Assembly: GCA_025057155.1 (NCBI GenBank)
Contig: JANWYD010000002.1
Coordinates: 248,001-312,000, forward strand
DNA from: Chloroflexaceae bacterium
GTDB lineage: Bacteria; Chloroflexota; Chloroflexia; Chloroflexales; Chloroflexaceae
Direction: 5' to 3'
Length of the DNA stretch: 64,000 bases
Position 1 is the first letter of the stretch. Every line of letters starts with the position of its first letter. The position numbers and the translations under genes are program-made. The notes beneath the pieces were generated by a model that was not told the origin of the DNA, searched no databases, and was given only the letters and a program-made list of their open reading frames with translations. Of this stretch, positions 36,696 through 47,313 are shown piece after piece.

Positions 36696-37187
36696 TTACT
36701 GCCGGAGGCGCTGCAGGGTCGGGGCAGTATAGGCATGACAGATGGCTACGGCAAGGGCGTCGGCGGCATCATCGGGGCGGGGAACAGACTCAAGGCCAAG
36801 GGTCAGTCGCACCATCTCTTGCATTTGTTTCTTGTCGGCCCCGCCGTAGCCTGCGACGGCCTGTTTGACCGCCAGGGGTTTGTACTCGTGGATGGTGAGG
36901 CCGGCCTGCGCCAGAGCCAGCAGGGCCACGCCACGGGCCTGTCCCACTGACAACGCGGTGTTTACATTTTTGCCGAAGAACAGTTCCTCAATTGCCGCGG
37001 CGTCTGGCGCATAGCGGGCGATCAGGTCGCGCAGGCCGTCGTAGAGGAGACGTAGCCGTTCGGCTTGCGGCGTGCCGGCGGGGGTGGTGAGGGCGCCGCT
37101 GCCGATCAGGGCGAGGCGACCATTGCTGATCTCCACAATGCCCCACCCCATGATCGCCGTGCCGGGGTCGATGCCCAGGGTACGCAT
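36696..37187 (-). CDS. ruvC: Crossover junction endodeoxyribonuclease RuvC
   Basis: A 163-residue Holliday-junction resolvase. The catalytic acids are in place: D7 in MRTLGIDPGTAIMGWG, a Glu pair near 67-68 in AAIEELFFGKNVNTALSVGQ, and the C-terminal PDDAADALAVAICH. EYKPLAVKQAVAGYGGADKK gives the DNA-binding loop. It resolves four-way junctions after RuvAB branch migration. It lies 91 bases after yebC and 2 bases before an unknown gene, a yebC-ruvC-X operon. Confidence 0.96.
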   Translation of the reverse strand: MRTLGIDPGTAIMGWGIVEISNGRLALIGSGALTTPAGTPQAERLRLLYDGLRDLIARYAPDAAAIEELFFGKNVNTALSVGQARGVALLALAQAGLTIHEYKPLAVKQAVAGYGGADKKQMQEMVRLTLGLESVPRPDDAADALAVAICHAYTAPTLQRLRQ

Positions 37188-37278
37188 CGCTTCCTTCCCC
37201 CGCTCACCTGCAGGCTGGGGGAAATCCGGGTCGCTTTGTTCCGCCTCCAGGTGTCTGGTCGCGCATCAGGCGTCGGGC

Positions 37279-38034
37279 CTACTCGAATTTGGCGGCGATG
37301 GCGTCGGTAATCAACAGGTTGGAGTAGACCTTCTGCACATCATCAAGGTCTTCCAGTTTCTCCATCAGCCGCATGGCTGCCAGGGCGTCCTTCTCGTCAG
37401 GCTCGATCTGCGTTTTAGGGCGCATCGTCTTCTCGGCGCTGATAATGGGAATGCCCTGGTCGAGCAGCGTCTGGCGCACGGCGTTGAGTTGCGTCCACTC
37501 GCAGTAGATCTCCAGCACGTTGCCTTCGACCTCGACATCATCGGCGCCGGCGTCAATCGCCGCCAGTTGCACTTCATCGGGGTCCATCCTGGAACCCGTG
37601 AGATCCACGGTAATCAAACCCTTGAGTTCAAACATCCAACTGACCGACCCTGGTTCGCCGGGACTGCCGCCAGCCTTGTTCAGAGTGGCGCGGATATCGG
37701 AGTTGGTGCGGTTCCGATTATCGGTGGCCGTCTGGATCAGCAGGGCGATGCCGCCGGGCGCGTAGCCCTCGTAGTACACCTCTTCAAGGGCGGTCTCATT
37801 ACTCTTGCCGAGACCGCGGTCAATCGCGCGCTGGATGCTCTCGCCCGGCATATTGTTCGACTTCGCCTTTTCTACGGCCAGGCGGAGGCGAAAGTTCAGA
37901 TCCGGGTCGCCGCTGCCGCCCTCCTTTACTGCGAGAGTGATATCACGGGCGAGCCTGGTGAACAACTGCCCACGGCGCTGATCGGCAACGCCCTTGGAAC
38001 GTCTGATCGTATGCCATTTGGAATGGCCGGACAT
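37279..38034 (-). CDS. yebC: YebC/PmpR family regulatory protein
   Basis: A 251-residue protein of full family length. It opens [20 protein letters not shown] and contains [37 protein letters not shown], and [20 protein letters not shown]. The family includes DNA-binding regulators and the TACO1-like factors that help translation of proline stretches. The usual linkage to ruvC is conserved here. ATG 38034 has a -10 element 33 bases upstream. Confidence 0.95.
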
Positions 38035-38075: not shown

Positions 38076-38211
38076 TAGTGGGGGATGGTCAACACGATAT
38101 GCAAACATCTGGTGCGGCCTCGTTTAGTATAGTACCCTTTGTAATGGGGGCGCGCCAGCGGGAGTCTTCGTTGGCGTGGGAGACCTTGCGCCTGTGAAAG
38201 GACGCCCGTCG

Positions 38212-40407
38212 ATGTCCATCGCGAACACGCAGCCCGGCGACTCGGAGCGGATACGCAGGTTGCCCAACTCGATCACCGTGGTGACCACTGCGGCCGGTGA
38301 CGTGCTGGTCAACTGCCCGCCCGAGACGCTCAAGTACCTCCTCGCGAACCATATCAGCCCGCCAGCGACGATCCTGATCCCTCCCGATATTCCGCCTGGA
38401 AGTGAGTTAGGCTCCGGCGGTTTTGTGCGCCGGGGTATTAACTATGCCAGCGTTGAGTTTTTGATCTACTCCAACTATTTTGTCAACGGGCGCAAGGCGC
38501 GCCTGATCACGGTGACCGAGGCTCAGGCGCGCCGACTGCGAATGTTGCTCGAGGAAACGATCAACGGTCCGACTGATGCGGCTGCGTATGGCCCTTACAC
38601 CTGGCTTCAGGCCGAATGCGCGGCAGTGGCTTATTATCCGCCACTGGGCCGCGCCCCTACGCTTGAAGATATGGCCGAGGTTGTGAGCCTGGAAGCCGGT
38701 GGCGGTACGCTGGGTCCGGTGAGCATCAACCTGGAGGGTGACGCATTTGTCTTTCGTGAAGGGGCAGTAGAGCTGGCGCGCGTGAGCGCGCGCGTCAGCG
38801 AGGTGGCCCTGCCGCTGACCCTGGCGCCGCCCCGACCATTGCAACGCCAGGAGGTGACGTTGCAGTTCATCGGTGGCAGCGATGGTTTCGATCCTGATGG
38901 CATTACGACCTGTTTTCTGGCCTACCTCGGTTCTTCTGTGGAAACCCAGGCTACGCTCTTCGATGCTGCCGCTTACGCCTACGTGCGTTTGAGCCATCTC
39001 GGCCTTTCCACGAGCCATATTGCCGAGGTCGTGCTCTCACATCTGCATGAGGATCATCTGGCCGGACTACCCGAGTTGATCCTGATGGGCAGCCACCGGG
39101 TGCGATTGCTGACCTCAGATCTGATCTATCGAGGCTTGCTGCGCGTGCTGAGCGCCATGCTCGACCTGCCGATCCCCGACGTGGCGGCGCTCTTCGATTA
39201 TGTGCCGTTGAATCCGGGCACGCCGCTGGAGTTAGAAGGCCGGCGCTTCGAGGCGATCTACGCTGTCCACTCGGTGCCGACGCTGGCCGTGCGGGTCAAT
39301 GGGGTGTGTTATTCGGGTGATATGCGCTACGACGAGGAGTGGTTCGATGAACTGGTCGCCCGGGGCGTGCTTTCAGAGCAGCGGCGCCAGGAACTGGTAC
39401 GCTTCGCCGAAGGCGCGAGCGTGCTGGTGCAGGATGTGGGCGGCGGCACGATCCACAGCACCCTGTCGCCGCGTCTGCTCAAAGCGCTGACGGCCAAGAG
39501 CCAGCGCCTGGTGCTGGCCCATACGCGCACTCATGCCCTGCCGGAGACCAGTTCCGAGATGGCCGGACGCGTCGAGTTTGCCGCCAGCGGTTCGGTGGTG
39601 GGCCTGGGTGCGCCCCTGCCCGATGATGAGCAGATCGAACTGGTCGAGACCATCGCTGCCTGTCCGCTCTTCGCGCGTCTGTCGTCCGCCGAGCGGCTCG
39701 CTCTGGCCCGGCAAGTAGAGGTTGTGAGCTTCTCTGAAGGGGAAGTGATCTTTCACGAGGGTGAACCTTCAGATGGGTGCGCCTACATTGTCCATTCGGG
39801 CATCGTAACCATTAGTATTGGCGAGGCGCCGGTGCGGGTGCTCGGGCGCGGCAGCAGTCTTGGCGAGCGAGGTGCGCTGCTCGGTGGCGCGCGCACCAGA
39901 ACCCTGGTGGCCCGGGGTCAAGTAACACTGTTATGCCTGAGGCCCGAGGTCTTCTGGCCGGCGGCGGAGCGACTGGGGCTGGCGACAGCCTGCGCCCGCG
40001 CTGATTGGCTCGCCGAGACGCCGGTGTTAGGCGCGTTGCCCTGGGCCAGTCTTCTCGACCTGGCGCTTGACTTTGAGCCTCGATCGCTGAGCGTCGGAGA
40101 GCGTTTGTTTGTGAGTGGCGAGCCGGGCTATGAAGGCTACGTGCTTGTCGAGGGCGCTGTGCAATTTTCAACCGCCGAAGGTCTGGTAGTTGACGAACTC
40201 CGGCAACCAGGACGGCTTTTTGGCTACCAGGCCGCACTCTACGGCTCATCGCACCGGCTAACTGCCAGCGCTACCGCGCCGACTGTCGTCTGGGCATTAG
40301 CGGCGCCGGCGCTCGAGCGTTTCAACCTCCTGTACCCCCAGTTGCTCATGCATCTGCGAGCGCTCGGTGCGCCGAGCGCTGGCGACGCAGGTGTTTCGTT
40401 CGCGTAA
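38212..40407 (+). CDS. Metallo-beta-lactamase-fold protein with two C-terminal cyclic-nucleotide-binding-type domains
   Basis: A 731-residue protein of unusual architecture. Residues 1-210 are an unrecognised domain beginning SITVVTTAAGDVLVNCPPET. A metallo-beta-lactamase domain follows with VVLSHLHEDHLAG (HxHxDH, about residues 274-280), GVCYSGDMRYDEEWFDEL and a late AHTRTHALPE. Residues about 483-580 are a cNMP-binding-type domain whose phosphate cassette is LGERGALLGGARTRTL. A second such domain (about 602-705) lacks the Gly-Glu and Arg of the cassette and looks degenerate. ATG 38212 has AAAGGA 9 bases upstream; a GTG at 38176 is less likely. It may be a ligand-gated hydrolase or phosphodiesterase. 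The function is unknown. Confidence 0.8.
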   Translation: MSIANTQPGDSERIRRLPNSITVVTTAAGDVLVNCPPETLKYLLANHISPPATILIPPDIPPGSELGSGGFVRRGINYASVEFLIYSNYFVNGRKARLITVTEAQARRLRMLLEETINGPTDAAAYGPYTWLQAECAAVAYYPPLGRAPTLEDMAEVVSLEAGGGTLGPVSINLEGDAFVFREGAVELARVSARVSEVALPLTLAPPRPLQRQEVTLQFIGGSDGFDPDGITTCFLAYLGSSVETQATLFDAAAYAYVRLSHLGLSTSHIAEVVLSHLHEDHLAGLPELILMGSHRVRLLTSDLIYRGLLRVLSAMLDLPIPDVAALFDYVPLNPGTPLELEGRRFEAIYAVHSVPTLAVRVNGVCYSGDMRYDEEWFDELVARGVLSEQRRQELVRFAEGASVLVQDVGGGTIHSTLSPRLLKALTAKSQRLVLAHTRTHALPETSSEMAGRVEFAASGSVVGLGAPLPDDEQIELVETIAACPLFARLSSAERLALARQVEVVSFSEGEVIFHEGEPSDGCAYIVHSGIVTISIGEAPVRVLGRGSSLGERGALLGGARTRTLVARGQVTLLCLRPEVFWPAAERLGLATACARADWLAETPVLGALPWASLLDLALDFEPRSLSVGERLFVSGEPGYEGYVLVEGAVQFSTAEGLVVDELRQPGRLFGYQAALYGSSHRLTASATAPTVVWALAAPALERFNLLYPQLLMHLRALGAPSAGDAGVSFA

Positions 40408-41848: not shown

Positions 41849-43039
41849 TTAGCCGGCGAGGCAGCGTTGCAGTTGCGTACAGACGTAATCCACTTGATCC
41901 TCACTCATGACACTTGAGAATGGCAAGGCCAGCGACACGTCACCCAGGTGCTCGGTTACAGGCAAATCGCCGCGCCGGTAGCCAAAGCGACTCTGGTAGA
42001 AGGGCTGCAGGTGGATGGGAGTGAAGTAGGGCCGGCTGGGGACGCCCGCCTCTGCCAACTGGCGCATCACCTGGTCGCGGCTGGCGGGCGCCACGATGCG
42101 CACTACATAGACGAACCAGCTCATCGCAGTGGTGGTTGGCGCAATGTACGGGCGTTCGACCAGTTCCAGATCGGCCAGGCGCTCGTTGTACCAGCGCGCC
42201 ACCTGGGCGCGCTTCGCCAGCAGCTCGTCCAGACGCCGCACCTGCACCAGCCCCAGCGCGGCGCTCAGTTCATCCAGGCGGTAGTTATAACCCAGGCGGG
42301 TGTGGTTGAGCCAGGCGTCAAAGACATCACGCCCCTGATTGCGCAGGCTGCGGAAGAGGTCAGCCCACGCCGCGCGGTTGGTGACGATCATGCCGCCTTC
42401 GCCGGTCGTCATTTGTTTGTTAGGATAAAAGGCGAAAACCGCCGCGTCGCCGATGGCGCCTGCGGCGCGACCTTTGTAGGTTGCGCCAATTGCCTCGCAG
42501 GCGTCTTCGATCACGGCCAGGCCGTGGTCGCGGGCCACTCCCAGAATGGGATCCATGTCTGCCGGTTGCCCAAAGGCGTGGACTGGCAGCAGCGCCTTCA
42601 GCCGGCCCTTTGGCGCATGGTCGCGCAGGGCGGGCGGCAGCCAGCGCCTGGCGGCCGGCCCGCCCCGCGCCAGATCCGCAGCCGCTTCCGCCGCCAGGTT
42701 TGGATCGATATTACCGGTTGCCCGATCAACGTCTATGAAGACCGGCACCCCGCGCTCGTACAGAATGCAGTTCGCCGAGGCGATGAACGAGAACGAGGGC
42801 GTCAGCACCAGGTCGCCGTCACCGATGCCGGCGGCGATCACGCAGAGGTGCAGGCCGCTGGTTCCCGAGTTTACGCCTACCGCGTGGGCGACTCCCACCC
42901 GGTCAGCCAGGGCCTGTTCAAAGGCCTTAATCTGTGGCCCGATGCTAAGGATGGGAGTATGCAATACCTCCGTGACGGCGGCAATCTCGGCATCGGTCAG
43001 ATCCGGCGAGGACATCGGAATGGATACCGTTGTGGTCAT
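41849..43039 (-). CDS. DegT/DnrJ/EryC1/StrS sugar aminotransferase
   Basis: A 396-residue PLP enzyme. GVNSGTSGLHLCVIAAGIGD is near residues 54-73, IEDACEAIGATYKGRAAG gives the PLP-ring Asp/Glu region, and the Schiff-base lysine is K208 in FYPNKQMTTGEGGMIVTN. LGYNYRLDELSAALGLVQ is the family dimer-loop motif. The family transfers an amino group from glutamate to a keto sugar nucleotide. With the PglF-type dehydratase at 29786 it fits PglE/VioA-type formation of a 4-amino-4,6-dideoxy sugar. GGAG lies 8 bases before ATG 43039. It is the second-last gene of the minus-strand locus. Confidence 0.93.
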   Translation of the reverse strand: MTTTVSIPMSSPDLTDAEIAAVTEVLHTPILSIGPQIKAFEQALADRVGVAHAVGVNSGTSGLHLCVIAAGIGDGDLVLTPSFSFIASANCILYERGVPVFIDVDRATGNIDPNLAAEAAADLARGGPAARRWLPPALRDHAPKGRLKALLPVHAFGQPADMDPILGVARDHGLAVIEDACEAIGATYKGRAAGAIGDAAVFAFYPNKQMTTGEGGMIVTNRAAWADLFRSLRNQGRDVFDAWLNHTRLGYNYRLDELSAALGLVQVRRLDELLAKRAQVARWYNERLADLELVERPYIAPTTTAMSWFVYVVRIVAPASRDQVMRQLAEAGVPSRPYFTPIHLQPFYQSRFGYRRGDLPVTEHLGDVSLALPFSSVMSEDQVDYVCTQLQRCLAG

Positions 43040-43080
43040 GCTAAACTCCGCGAATGCTGCTAGATGTTGAGGCCGGCCCT

Positions 43081-44034
43081 TTACACGCCTTGCAGGGCCT
43101 CAACCAGTTCCGCGAGACCGGCCGGGTTGTCACCGAAGTTCATGCGCCCGACGCGCCGATCAATGGCCCGCATCAGGCCGGTAAGCACCTTCCCCGGCCC
43201 CACTTCGACCACGGTGCTAATCCCCGTTTCAATCAGGCGACGCATCGAGGCGACCCAGCGCACCTCGCGGGTAAGTTGCTCGCTCAACTCCTGTCGCACC
43301 GCCTCAGCCGAGGCGAGCCAGTCGGCAGATACGTTGCCGAGCACAGGGATCGCCGGCGCCGCAATCGGCGTCGCCGCCAGCACTTCCAGAAAGCTCCCTA
43401 GCGCGGGCTGCATGAGCGGTGTATGGGGGGCCACGCTGACCTTGAGCGGAGTGGGCGGGAGGGCGCCTGGCTGCTCCTGCACCAGCGCCGCGAAGGTCTC
43501 CAGAGCGCGCCGATCACCGGCAACTACGATTTGACCGGGGCAGTTATCGTTGGCAATGGTGATCACTGCGTCGGTGATTTGCGCCGCCCTGTCGCAGAGC
43601 TGGCTCACCGTGTCCCGCGACTGGCCCAGTACGGCCATCATGCCGCCGGGAGCCAGTTCGCCTGCCGCCTTCATGGCCAGGCCACGCGCCCGTACCAACC
43701 GCAGCGCGTCGGCGAACTCGAGCGACCCTGCCGCGACCAGGGCGGCATACAGGCCCAGGCTGTGACCGGCTACTGCGGCCGGCGGCGTCGTCAGGGCCTC
43801 GCGCAGCGTTCTCCAGGCCGCGATGCTGGCCACGAAGATCGCCGGCTGAGCGTTCGCTGTATCATTCAACTCCAATTCCGGTCCATCAAAGCAGAGCGTT
43901 GACAGGGCGAAGTCAAGCACAGCGTCGGCCTCGGCAAAGACTGCCGCCGCTACAGGCGATCCCTCGACCAGCGCCTTGCCCATCCCCACAAATTGTGAGC
44001 CTTGACCGGGAAAAAGGGCCGCGTACATTGTCAT
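43081..44034 (-). CDS. fabD: Malonyl-CoA:ACP transacylase
   Basis: A 317-residue MAT. It has AALFPGQGSQFVGMGKALVE at the start, the nucleophile elbow GHSLGLYAALVAAG (Ser near residue 90), the substrate arginine region RARGLAMKAAGE, and the catalytic His in VSVAPHTPLMQPAL near 205. It loads malonyl groups on ACP. Housekeeping fabD usually sits with other fab genes. Here it lies inside a glycan locus with a KAS III, a reductase and two ACPs, so it probably supplies malonyl-ACP for a dedicated acyl chain, though it might also serve general lipid synthesis. Confidence 0.93.
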   Translation of the reverse strand: MTMYAALFPGQGSQFVGMGKALVEGSPVAAAVFAEADAVLDFALSTLCFDGPELELNDTANAQPAIFVASIAAWRTLREALTTPPAAVAGHSLGLYAALVAAGSLEFADALRLVRARGLAMKAAGELAPGGMMAVLGQSRDTVSQLCDRAAQITDAVITIANDNCPGQIVVAGDRRALETFAALVQEQPGALPPTPLKVSVAPHTPLMQPALGSFLEVLAATPIAAPAIPVLGNVSADWLASAEAVRQELSEQLTREVRWVASMRRLIETGISTVVEVGPGKVLTGLMRAIDRRVGRMNFGDNPAGLAELVEALQGV

Positions 44035-44062
44035 GGTCTCGTTTCGCTCCTTGTGTGCGCCC

Positions 44063-44659
44063 CTACCGCTCCGCGGCTTCTCGCGTAAAAACCGGCCTGG
44101 CGGGATTGCCTACCACCGTCGTATCCGCCGGCACAGAACGAGTCACCACCGCGTTGGCGCCGATTGTAACGTTGTCGCCGATGGTGATGTCGCCAAGTAT
44201 CGCCGCTCCGGCGCCGATGGCGACATTATTGCCAATGCGAGGGGCGCCGATGTTCGAGATGCCAATAACCGAAACTCCAATGGTCACGCTGTGCAGCAGG
44301 GTGACATTGCTGCCGAGGATCGCCCGGTAGTGAATGACCGTTGGGCCGAGGTGCAGCACCTGCAACCCCGGTCCCACCGTGGTCTGCGGCAGCAGTTCCA
44401 GCCCCGAGTACATGCGCACCAGCGGGTAGAAGGCCAGGTAGCCGAGAAACGCCAGGAAAATGAGCGGATTGCGCCGGTTCAGCCACAACCAGTGCCCGAT
44501 ACGGTAGTACAAAACGCCCGCCAGCGCGGGGTGCAGATACGCTGATCGAAGGAAAACCACCAGCAGCGGAGCATCGCGGGAATAGCGGCGCAGGTCTTGC
44601 CGGATGGCGTCAATGGTCCAGGCCAGGGTCTTGCGGGAGGGGAATGGTACGGTGTTCAC
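44063..44659 (-). CDS. Serine acetyltransferase-like hexapeptide acyltransferase
   Basis: A 198-residue protein read from GTG 44659 (GGAG about 10 bases upstream). An N-terminal helical part (SRKTLAWTIDAIRQDLRRYS) carries a hydrophobic stretch (NPLIFLAFLGYLAFYPLV). A left-handed beta-helix of hexapeptide repeats follows: VTIGVSVIGISNIGAPRIGN and AILGDITIGDNVTIGANAVV, ending VVGNPARPVF as in CysE/colanic-acid acetyltransferases. It transfers an acyl group, usually acetyl, from CoA (or possibly ACP) to a hydroxyl or amino group. The context favours glycan O- or N-acylation over cysteine synthesis. Confidence 0.85.
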   Translation of the reverse strand: MNTVPFPSRKTLAWTIDAIRQDLRRYSRDAPLLVVFLRSAYLHPALAGVLYYRIGHWLWLNRRNPLIFLAFLGYLAFYPLVRMYSGLELLPQTTVGPGLQVLHLGPTVIHYRAILGSNVTLLHSVTIGVSVIGISNIGAPRIGNNVAIGAGAAILGDITIGDNVTIGANAVVTRSVPADTTVVGNPARPVFTREAAER

Positions 44660-44713
44660 AACAGGCTCTCCGCGATGCGCTGTGTCCTCGTACTCGAATG
44701 CGATTTCGCTCCA

Positions 44714-44764
44714 GCCTCCCCCCAACGGGGGGGCGCCGGGGCTCTACCCCGCTGGGGGAGGATT
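44714..44764. repeat. G/C-rich imperfect inverted repeat between operon genes
   Basis: CCTCCCCCCAACGGGG-type sequence on the left pairs imperfectly with CCCCGCTGGGGGAGG on the right, with an inner GGGG/CCCC stem. It lies between the second ACP gene and the hexapeptide transferase gene and may be a processing or attenuation structure. Confidence 0.45.
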
Positions 44765-44806
44765 GGAGGGGTAAGGGTTTAGCGAAAAATGTAGTTCGCA
44801 GACTGA

Positions 44807-45118
44807 TCAGGCTGCCTGCTGGTGCTCCTCGGCCAGGAGGCGCACAATGTAATCGGCCAGACTGCCGACGCTGCGGAAGGGGCTGCGCTGCTGCGACATG
44901 GCCCGGCTGTCGGCGATGGTGATGGCGGTGTCCAGCCGAGCATTGATCTCCTGCTCCAGGTCGAGCACCAGGCTCACCAGGCGCAGCGAGTCCAGCAGGC
45001 CCTCGGGGCCATAGAGCCGGGTGCTTTCCTCGATCGGCAGGCCGGCTCTGGCCGGGTCGCCGGCCAGCAGATCCCGCAGGGTTGTCACGATCAGGTCCAT
45101 CACGTCACTGCGGTTCAT
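44807..45118 (-). CDS. Acyl carrier protein, copy linked to the AMP-dependent ligase
   Basis: A 103-residue ACP/PCP-like protein. The phosphopantetheine attachment motif is GLLDSLRLVSLVLDLEQEI with Ser near residue 44. Helix 3/4 positions and the acid-rich surface fit the fold, and a longer loop (RAMSQQRSPFRSVGSL) is inserted before helix 4. AGGAGG lies before ATG 45118, within the end of the ligase gene, whose last 14 bases overlap it. The partner is probably the adjacent ligase, which would load the carrier. Confidence 0.87.
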   Translation of the reverse strand: MNRSDVMDLIVTTLRDLLAGDPARAGLPIEESTRLYGPEGLLDSLRLVSLVLDLEQEINARLDTAITIADSRAMSQQRSPFRSVGSLADYIVRLLAEEHQQAA

Positions 45119-46487
45119 TCGTGATTCCTCCTGTAGCCGCCGGTTGACGGCGCATCTTCTTAAAGCGCTGGCTGTACTGTGCGTTCTCGACGATCAGGAT
45201 CTTGGCCGGGATCTTGAACGCGGCCATGCGGTCACGGCAAAAATCGCGCACCCGCTTGCGGAACTGCGCCGCATCCTCCGGCTCGAACAGGTTGAAGCGT
45301 GCAACGACAATCTGCCCGGTTATCGGATTGGATTCACCGGTCACGGCCACATCGCGCACATTAGGCATCTGGAGCAGGACGCTCTCCACCTCGGCCGGAT
45401 ACACCTTCTGGCCGCCGACATTGATGATCTCCGACGTGCGTCCCAGGATGCGGATGTACTCGCCGTCCACCTCGACTGCATCGCCGGTGTTGAACCAGCC
45501 GTCGGCGTCAAAGGGCGAGGGCGCGTTCAGATAGCCGAGCATCGCGGAGCGCGCCTTGATCCACAGCGTGCCGTCCTGGATCTTCGTTTCGAAATCTTCG
45601 CCGCCAACTTTGACCCAGAGGGAGTCCGAGCTGCGCGACTTGGAGCGCATGATGCCGATCTCCGACAGGCCATAGGTTTGCAGCAGTTCTGCGTGGGGCA
45701 GGATCTCGTGGATGCGTCGGAGGGTATGCTCGGGCATCGGCTCGGTGCCGTAGGTGACCCGTTTGAGCGAGGAGAGATCGTGCCGCTTGTAGGCTTCGGA
45801 GATCAGCAACAGGTTGAGAAAGGTGGGCGAGGTGGGCAACACTTCCACCCGATGCCGTTCAATGGCCGCGCAGACCTTGTCGGGGTCGCGGTCCTCCACC
45901 GTGACGACGCAGCCGGTGTTGGAGAGTACATAGAGCAGGGTGTTGATGCCCCCGATGTGATCAAGCAGGAGGAAGGTCAGGGTGACCATCGAGTGGCGGG
46001 GCGTTTTGAACTTCTCCAGCAGATTGGTGAAGTTGTGCAGCGCGGCTTTGCTCTTGCCGGTCGAGCCAGAGGAGAAGAGCACCAGGCCCGGATCGCCACT
46101 GGCAATCAGTTTACGGGTCAGTTCGTTCGTCACTTCGGTGGGGCGGCGACTGATGCTGCTCTGCTCATTGCGGTCAATTGCAATCACCACCTGCACCTCG
46201 GCGATCTGCTTGAACTCCTCTTTGTGGACCTCGACGCTGGCGGTCAGCGGAACAAGGATCGTTCCCCGCTCGATAAGCGCCAGCATCAGGGCAACGACGT
46301 GGGGCGAATAATCGCCCTCAATCGCCACGACCGTTCCCGGTGCTACATCGGCGGCATCAAGGCGCGTTTCCCACTCGCGGATATGTTCCGTGAGCCACGC
46401 ATAGGTGTAGGGTTGATCGCGCCAGATGATGAAGTTTCGCTCAGGTTCTCTGGCGAAACGCTCGAACAACCACGTCAGGCAACCCAT
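45105..46487 (-). CDS. AMP-dependent acyl ligase (ANL superfamily)
   Basis: A 460-residue adenylate-forming enzyme. The P-loop-like motif LVLFSSGSTGKSKAALHNF is near residue 150. A5 is LLQTYGLSEIGIM, A7/A8 is GWFNTGDAVEVDGEYIRILG then RTSEIINVGGQKVYPAEVES, and the C-terminal Lys region is YSQRFKKMRR. It activates a carboxylic acid as acyl-AMP and passes it to CoA or a carrier thiol. A dedicated ACP overlaps its end, so the carrier is probably that protein. The substrate acid is unknown and may start or cap the acyl chain. ATG 46487 has GGAGGAG upstream; one base separates it from the reductase stop. Confidence 0.9.
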   Translation of the reverse strand: MGCLTWLFERFAREPERNFIIWRDQPYTYAWLTEHIREWETRLDAADVAPGTVVAIEGDYSPHVVALMLALIERGTILVPLTASVEVHKEEFKQIAEVQVVIAIDRNEQSSISRRPTEVTNELTRKLIASGDPGLVLFSSGSTGKSKAALHNFTNLLEKFKTPRHSMVTLTFLLLDHIGGINTLLYVLSNTGCVVTVEDRDPDKVCAAIERHRVEVLPTSPTFLNLLLISEAYKRHDLSSLKRVTYGTEPMPEHTLRRIHEILPHAELLQTYGLSEIGIMRSKSRSSDSLWVKVGGEDFETKIQDGTLWIKARSAMLGYLNAPSPFDADGWFNTGDAVEVDGEYIRILGRTSEIINVGGQKVYPAEVESVLLQMPNVRDVAVTGESNPITGQIVVARFNLFEPEDAAQFRKRVRDFCRDRMAAFKIPAKILIVENAQYSQRFKKMRRQPAATGGITNEPQ

Positions 46488-46488
46488 A

Positions 46489-47190
46489 TCAGGCTCCTCC
46501 CAGATAGATGATCTGGCCGGTAATGTAGTCGCTCTCTGGCCGGATAAAAAACTCCACCACATTGAACACATCGGCTGGCTGACCAAGCCGTTTGATCGCC
46601 AGCCGGTTCACAATTTCCTCAATTTTGTCGCGAGGAACGTTGCGGATCAGATCGGTCTCCACCGGCGTGGGACCGACGGCGTTCACCGTAATGCCAAACG
46701 GCGCCAGTTCGCGGCTCAGGACCCGCGTCAGCGCCTCAACGGCGCTCTTTGAAGCCACGTAAATCGACTCGCCCTCCAGCGACAGCGGAACGGCCACGGT
46801 GGTCAGATTAACGATCCGCCCGTACTGGCGCTTGCGCATCAAGCGGGCGCTCTCACGCGACACCAGGAAGGCGCCGCGCACGTTGATCTCCATGACCTGG
46901 TTGACCGTTGCGGCGGGGATCAGCAGAGCATGGTTCATCGAAGCGACGCCGGCATTGTTGATCGTAACGTCGAGCCGGCCAAAGCGCTGGCGGATCTGGC
47001 TCAGTAACCGTTGCACCTGCTGCTCATCACTGACATCGGCGCAGAGATGCCAGTAGCCCGCGCGTTCCCAGTCGGCAGGCTCGCGGCTGCATCCCACCAC
47101 CTGGTAGCCGCGGTCGAGCAACTGTTCAGCAATAAACTTGCCCAGCCCCTTGCGACTTCCGGTTACCAGCGCGACACGTTGCGGTTCCAT
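46489..47190 (-). CDS. SDR-family 3-oxoacyl-ACP reductase-like enzyme
   Basis: A 233-residue FabG-like short-chain dehydrogenase. The NAD(P) motif is VALVTGSRKGLGKFIAEQLL, followed by the NNAGVAS block, and Y-x3-K is in SIYVASKSAVEALTRVLSRE. The catalytic Ser, 13 residues before the Tyr, is replaced by Thr in IVNLTTVAVPLS. The C-terminal GQIIYLGGA is typical of FabG. It should reduce a 3-oxoacyl carrier intermediate to 3-hydroxyacyl. No dehydratase or enoyl reductase accompanies it. ATG 47190 is preferred over a GTG at 47238 that adds unconserved residues. Confidence 0.88.
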   Translation of the reverse strand: MEPQRVALVTGSRKGLGKFIAEQLLDRGYQVVGCSREPADWERAGYWHLCADVSDEQQVQRLLSQIRQRFGRLDVTINNAGVASMNHALLIPAATVNQVMEINVRGAFLVSRESARLMRKRQYGRIVNLTTVAVPLSLEGESIYVASKSAVEALTRVLSRELAPFGITVNAVGPTPVETDLIRNVPRDKIEEIVNRLAIKRLGQPADVFNVVEFFIRPESDYITGQIIYLGGA

Positions 47191-47227
47191 CTGGTTCGTT
47201 GTCCCTTCTGCTGTTAGAGCGCTGACC

Positions 47228-47313
47228 GATTGATTCACCGAGGACCCCGAGCCGTGTGGCTCGCTGCGCTCGCGCTGCTATCATGACGGGTCAAACTTTC
47301 GAGAAACGCTATA
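47228..47313 (+). repeat. Dispersed 86-bp repeat, copy B
   Basis: It begins GATTGATTCACCGAGGAC and ends TTTCGAGAAACGCTATA, about 85% identical by eye to 35880-35965 with two small indels. It lies within the 212-base break between the acpS and reductase genes of the glycan locus, so it may have inserted into the operon. Confidence 0.6.

Follow-up and report, generated by a model that had tools for sequence, protein, structure and literature searches.

A conserved Chloroflexaceae protein, a proposed cyclic-nucleotide-regulated metallo-β-lactamase phosphodiesterase

Dictyostelium GbpA and GbpB carry a phosphodiesterase domain of the metallo-β-lactamase type (MBL, class IIb) with two cyclic nucleotide monophosphate (cNMP)-binding domains (CNBs) downstream of it, and both are activated by cGMP or cAMP (PMC11988041). 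Apyc1 is a cNMP phosphodiesterase whose active site is complete only with residues contributed by the opposing protomer, and YhfI prefers cAMP and cGMP as substrates (PMC9117128). In ELAC2, the human long-form RNase Z, the active site lies in a channel between two halves (PMC11649783). Long-form RNase Z has been described as exclusively eukaryotic (PMC11649783, PMC3161902), and the motifs PxKxRN, GP and HEAT are diagnostic of tRNase Z (PMC3161902).

The gene analyzed here is located in a window of 64,000 nucleotides, the whole stretch of DNA that was analyzed, from the 5.1 Mb genome of a photosynthetic Chloroflexaceae relative of Chloroflexus. The open reading frame is as given in the preliminary description and encodes a protein of 731 aa. 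The mechanically called frame opens at GTG 38176, but the start codon ATG 38212 is favored because orthologues start there and because an AAAGGA box is found 9 nt upstream. The gene and this box are positioned as follows.

38197..38202, plus strand: AAAGGA box resembling a ribosome-binding site, read from the sequence
38212..40407, plus strand: whole gene, with 24 orthologues free of frame breaks

Genes yebC and ruvC (window 36696-38034) are divergently oriented from the MBL-CNB gene, here at a distance of about 180 bp. This head-to-head arrangement is kept in several genera and missing in Chloroploca and some Oscillochloris-type genomes; a functional link to the MBL-CNB gene is not evident and no functional inference was drawn from it. 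Inspection of the gene neighborhood revealed no cyclase adjoining the gene. Elsewhere in the window (41849-47238), genes for a DegT aminotransferase, an acyltransferase and a hexapeptide transferase are clustered with carrier-protein-like and AMP-ligase-like genes, the latter two labels being assigned by eye, in what resembles a pathway for modifying acyl sugars or lipids.

Orthologues sharing 55-88% identity over the full length are present in 20 of the 23 genomes sampled from the same family, and in one genome from another Chloroflexota family. In the neighboring families f2 and f3, no sampled genome scored above threshold. Nitrospirota yielded 0 of 148, a count that is uninformative as the search had no positive control. 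Plasmids gave one partial MBL match, and none with the proteobacterial query, while the viral fold library gave partial matches only. On a contig binned as Rubrobacter (L036:2-1507), a relative with 56% identity is interrupted by an in-frame stop that separates the MBL from the CNBs; either the contig comes from Chloroflexota and was misbinned, or the copy is broken. A 5.8 Mb metagenome-assembled genome labeled Gracilibacteria (L033) contains an orthologue of the Chloroflexaceae type, full-length and with yebC-ruvC in synteny, and this label is probably wrong. In Candidatus Chloroploca mongolica, the gene occurs twice, on separate contigs (L012 and L022) and with identical protein products, perhaps through duplication in the assembly.

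Within the 731-aa protein, Pfam detects Lactamase_B_2 (E 6.6e-8, above cut-off) and cNMP_binding (91.9 bits) in two stretches. These matches and the 24 orthologues confirm the earlier observation that an HxHxDH-type MBL and two C-terminal cNMP-type domains occur in one chain. The features of the catalytic domain are listed below.

38848..39612, plus strand: catalytic MBL domain, residues 213-467, based on Pfam and on similarity to the Apyc1, RNase Z and YhfI folds
39040..39057, plus strand: HLHEDH metal motif, residues 277-282, with E280 invariant in addition to its metal ligands and HxHxDH in 24/24 orthologues
39268..39270, plus strand: metal ligand H353
39319..39321, plus strand: bridging metal ligand D370, in SGDM
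39454..39462, plus strand: H-S-T motif, residues 415-417, of the RNase Z/phosphodiesterase type, in 24/24 orthologues
39520..39522, plus strand: metal ligand H437

H277, H279, D281, H282, H353, D370 and H437, together with H415 of the H-[S/T]-T motif, are unchanged in all 24 aligned orthologues. As the remaining MBL ligands and the RNase Z-like H-[S/T]-T are thus kept beside HxHxDH, the active site looks complete. This is the pattern of class II MBL-fold zinc phosphodiesterases, HxHxDH with further His, Asp and His ligands, and the predicted fold lies nearest to those of phosphodiesterases and RNase Z, with Z 20-21.5 across 214-232 residues. Among proteins of known structure, Apyc1 is the best match in sequence (E 8e-6), with weak and partial similarity.

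The C-terminal part comprises two CNBs that, by fold comparison, resemble the tandem CNBs of PKA regulatory subunits, the match extending over model residues 470-731.

39625..39978, plus strand: CNB-A, residues 472-589, intact-looking, based on Pfam and PKA-R/PKG folds
39862..39894, plus strand: CNB-A phosphate-binding cassette GERGALLGGAR, residues 551-561, with GE...R in 24/24 orthologues and 0/18 proteobacterial relatives
39997..40368, plus strand: CNB-B, residues 596-719, with a degenerate cassette in a PKA-R-like tandem fold

The presence of G551-E552...R561 in every orthologue suggests that CNB-A may bind cNMPs. On the other hand, GE...R is found in CNB-B in none of the 42 sequences aligned. 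The proposal that the first CNB has a plausible cassette and the second lacks it is therefore borne out among the orthologues, and across 55-88% identity such a contrast, as read from the alignment, is not chance. The T/S following R561 does not settle the choice between cAMP and cGMP. Class III cyclases are encoded in this genome, as in all 31 family genomes searched. One of them, an FHA-GAF-class III cyclase (L094, contig C8:81343-81885), contains DKYTGDG and EYTAIGDTVNTASR, which we read as residues of the adenylyl-cyclase type, and open reading frames similar in length recur in most Chloroflexaceae genomes. This cyclase is a likely source of cAMP, making cAMP the most likely nucleotide.

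Residues 1-210 have no Pfam match in the window protein, only scattered weak matches in its relatives, and nothing credible among PDB sequences. A first AlphaFold2 model, for which the input was 24 close sequences, turned out poor (pTM 0.60). Following addition of distant relatives to a total of 42 sequences, a second model reached a pLDDT of 86 and a pTM of 0.87. The top VIA-align row obtained with this second model is human ELAC2 (Z 21.7, 368 residues, rmsd 3.9), covering model residues 11-467, and is tied with the next rows, Apyc1, RNase Z and YhfI, which cover residues 213-468 with Z about 20-21.5 (20.4-21.5 for Apyc1 and YhfI, both among the best folds). PhnP-type and RNase enzymes are also fold neighbors, with comparable Z. 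For several ELAC2 entries, the alignment begins at residue 11 and covers about 140 residues more than for single MBLs, and the best interpretation of the N-terminal domain is therefore one half of an MBL in degenerate form. In the second model, its predicted order of three strands, a helix, a strand, a loop, two helices, a strand, a long helix and then further strands is similar to that in the initial portion of the active MBL domain. Internal sequence similarity between both halves was not detected (z near 0), and ELAC2 is missing from the top 50 folds of the poorer first model.

38245..38826, plus strand: N-terminal domain, residues 12-205, predicted degenerate and truncated MBL half without metal motif, based on the ELAC2 alignment and the strand/helix order

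Rather than being an unrelated new domain, this region is thus probably a degenerate, truncated MBL half, as far as the predicted model can tell.

The likeness to ELAC2 consists of a predicted inactive N-terminal half joined to an active C-terminal MBL, a tandem arrangement seen in the structural alignment of the better model and not in sequence. It raises the question whether the protein is a cyclic-nucleotide-regulated RNA 3′-end nuclease, that is, a bacterial long-form RNase Z. Besides the predicted fold match, which spans the two halves, the protein has HxHxDH and H-[S/T]-T in common with RNase Z, and there is a weak match to NCBIfam TIGR02651. That match, however, scores 32.7 against a curated cut-off of 292.95 bits, and PxKxRN, the GP-motif flexible arm and HEAT are each found in 0 of the 24 orthologues; on these grounds, membership of tRNase Z was rejected. 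ELAC2 has an exosite and tRNase Z motifs, which the Chloroflexaceae protein lacks, and no CNBs; the Chloroflexaceae N-terminal half is shorter. The MBL domain also has no insertion the size of the arm, and a better RNase Z-like gene, likewise below cut-off, is located elsewhere in the genome. We therefore consider an RNase Z function improbable.

Apyc1 and YhfI share the MBL fold and the metal motif with the Chloroflexaceae protein, but they are short homodimers of about 245 aa devoid of CNBs and of an N-terminal half (PMC9117128). The protein is not a member of the Anti-Pycsar Apyc1 family: at 731 aa, the window protein gives no PF23023 match at E 1, and relatives score 17.7-21.2 against a cut-off of 50. 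The order of domains, an MBL catalytic domain with two CNBs downstream on the same chain, is that of GbpA/GbpB, which are likewise intracellular and in which nucleotide binding controls catalysis (PMC11988041). GbpA/GbpB are eukaryotic and were compared by description alone, and the Chloroflexaceae protein has one intact CNB cassette only. Layout and likely activity are known from Dictyostelium, so the layout has a precedent, and the refutation foreseen in the preliminary description, a known family of this architecture and function, applies as regards layout.

Taken together, Apyc1 as the nearest sequence relative of known function, the GbpA/GbpB layout and the presence of class III cyclases favor a cNMP-regulated cNMP phosphodiesterase. 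With somewhat better than even confidence, we propose that the protein is a soluble MBL (class IIb) enzyme of this kind, composed of a pseudo-MBL half, an active MBL, a ligand-binding CNB-A and a structural CNB-B. We infer that a cyclic nucleotide, most likely cAMP, would bind CNB-A via E552 and R561, and that the resulting movement of CNB-A would be passed on to the MBL active site, where it would raise rather than inhibit the rate at which cAMP, or a comparable cNMP, is hydrolyzed to the 5′-NMP. Like GbpA/GbpB in Dictyostelium, the enzyme might in this way clip signal peaks. The inactive N-terminal half could serve as a built-in partner of the active half, as in ELAC2, replacing the homodimer of the Apyc1 type. 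The suggestion made in the preliminary description, a hydrolase that is gated by a ligand and has cyclic nucleotides as substrates, remains the best reading. For GbpA/GbpB, however, the reported effect is stimulation and not the suggested product feedback, and lactone or cyclic-dinucleotide hydrolysis found no specific support.

Using a profile of the N-terminus and the MBL, relatives were found in 43 of 299 Pseudomonadota genomes. The best of these show the same N-MBL-CNB-CNB order, in most rows with a core of about 727-736 aa, at 19-24% identity over the full length. Profile comparison matches residues 205-726 (99.9%, E 6.5e-31), and MBL, CNB-A and CNB-B are each significant when compared separately. 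The N-termini are similar by eye (LVNCPPETLKYLL / ILCGCPADSVKHLM), but as the profile match spans only 23 weakly scoring columns, their kinship is likely from position and not proved. While domain order, length and metal ligands are thus shared with the window protein, these unnamed proteins have lost the cNMP cassette, GE...R being present in neither CNB (0/18), and 11 of the 15 scanned carry added domains: a receiver in 6, SBP_bac_3 in 2 and hemerythrin in 3. Several loci (L118-L132) adjoin receiver/CheY-like and CheC-like genes, the CheC-like label being a reading of the sequence by eye. These fusions and neighbors suggest that the core is an output module of sensory proteins, possibly an unnamed signaling output family. 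In some cases, paralogues of the module lie next to each other, with a receiver or SBP_bac_3 as the input.

These relatives weigh against the proposed cNMP phosphodiesterase, as the catalytic module may generally act on another substrate; the weak and partial similarity to Apyc1 and the lack of an adjoining cyclase also count against the proposal. Other inputs in the absence of a cNMP cassette leave room for a substrate other than a cNMP, and PhnP-type and RNase enzymes are fold neighbors at similar Z. CNB-A would then read cAMP and gate a phosphodiesterase for another nucleotide signal, an RNA end or a small phosphodiester. Against this, the best sequence relative, Apyc1, is a cNMP phosphodiesterase, and the sole characterized proteins with the same layout hydrolyze cNMPs; we regard a different substrate as unlikely. 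The receiver and CheC-like neighbors and the occasional hemerythrin domain are also reminiscent of a non-catalytic metal sensor, comparable to diiron oxygen-binding MBL-fold chemotaxis sensors. Flavodiiron and oxygen-sensor MBLs carry HxExD. In all 42 sequences, however, the second ligand is His, as in zinc hydrolases, and receiver or CheC-like context is missing around the Chloroflexaceae protein, rendering a sensor role very improbable indeed.

A cNMP phosphodiesterase of this layout, known already in Dictyostelium, would be new in several respects: a conserved bacterial version, the asymmetry of its CNBs, a possible bacterial long-form MBL, and relatives acting as signaling outputs. A literature search covering few subscription journals returned no paper on the MBL-two-CNB layout in bacteria. 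Tentatively, and with somewhat less than even confidence, we put forward a bacterial long-form MBL phosphodiesterase in which a pseudo-MBL is fused to an active MBL gated by tandem CNBs, the same core being used in Pseudomonadota as a so far unrecognized output of two-component and other sensory proteins, with cNMP gating swapped for other inputs. If true, a tandem pseudo-MBL/MBL in bacteria would bear on the origin of the long RNase Z form, and an unnamed output module would be indicated in bacterial signal transduction. With the protein itself, a type of enzyme that degrades signals in slime-mold chemotaxis would have its counterpart in bacteria, and control by cAMP in filamentous anoxygenic phototrophs would become testable.
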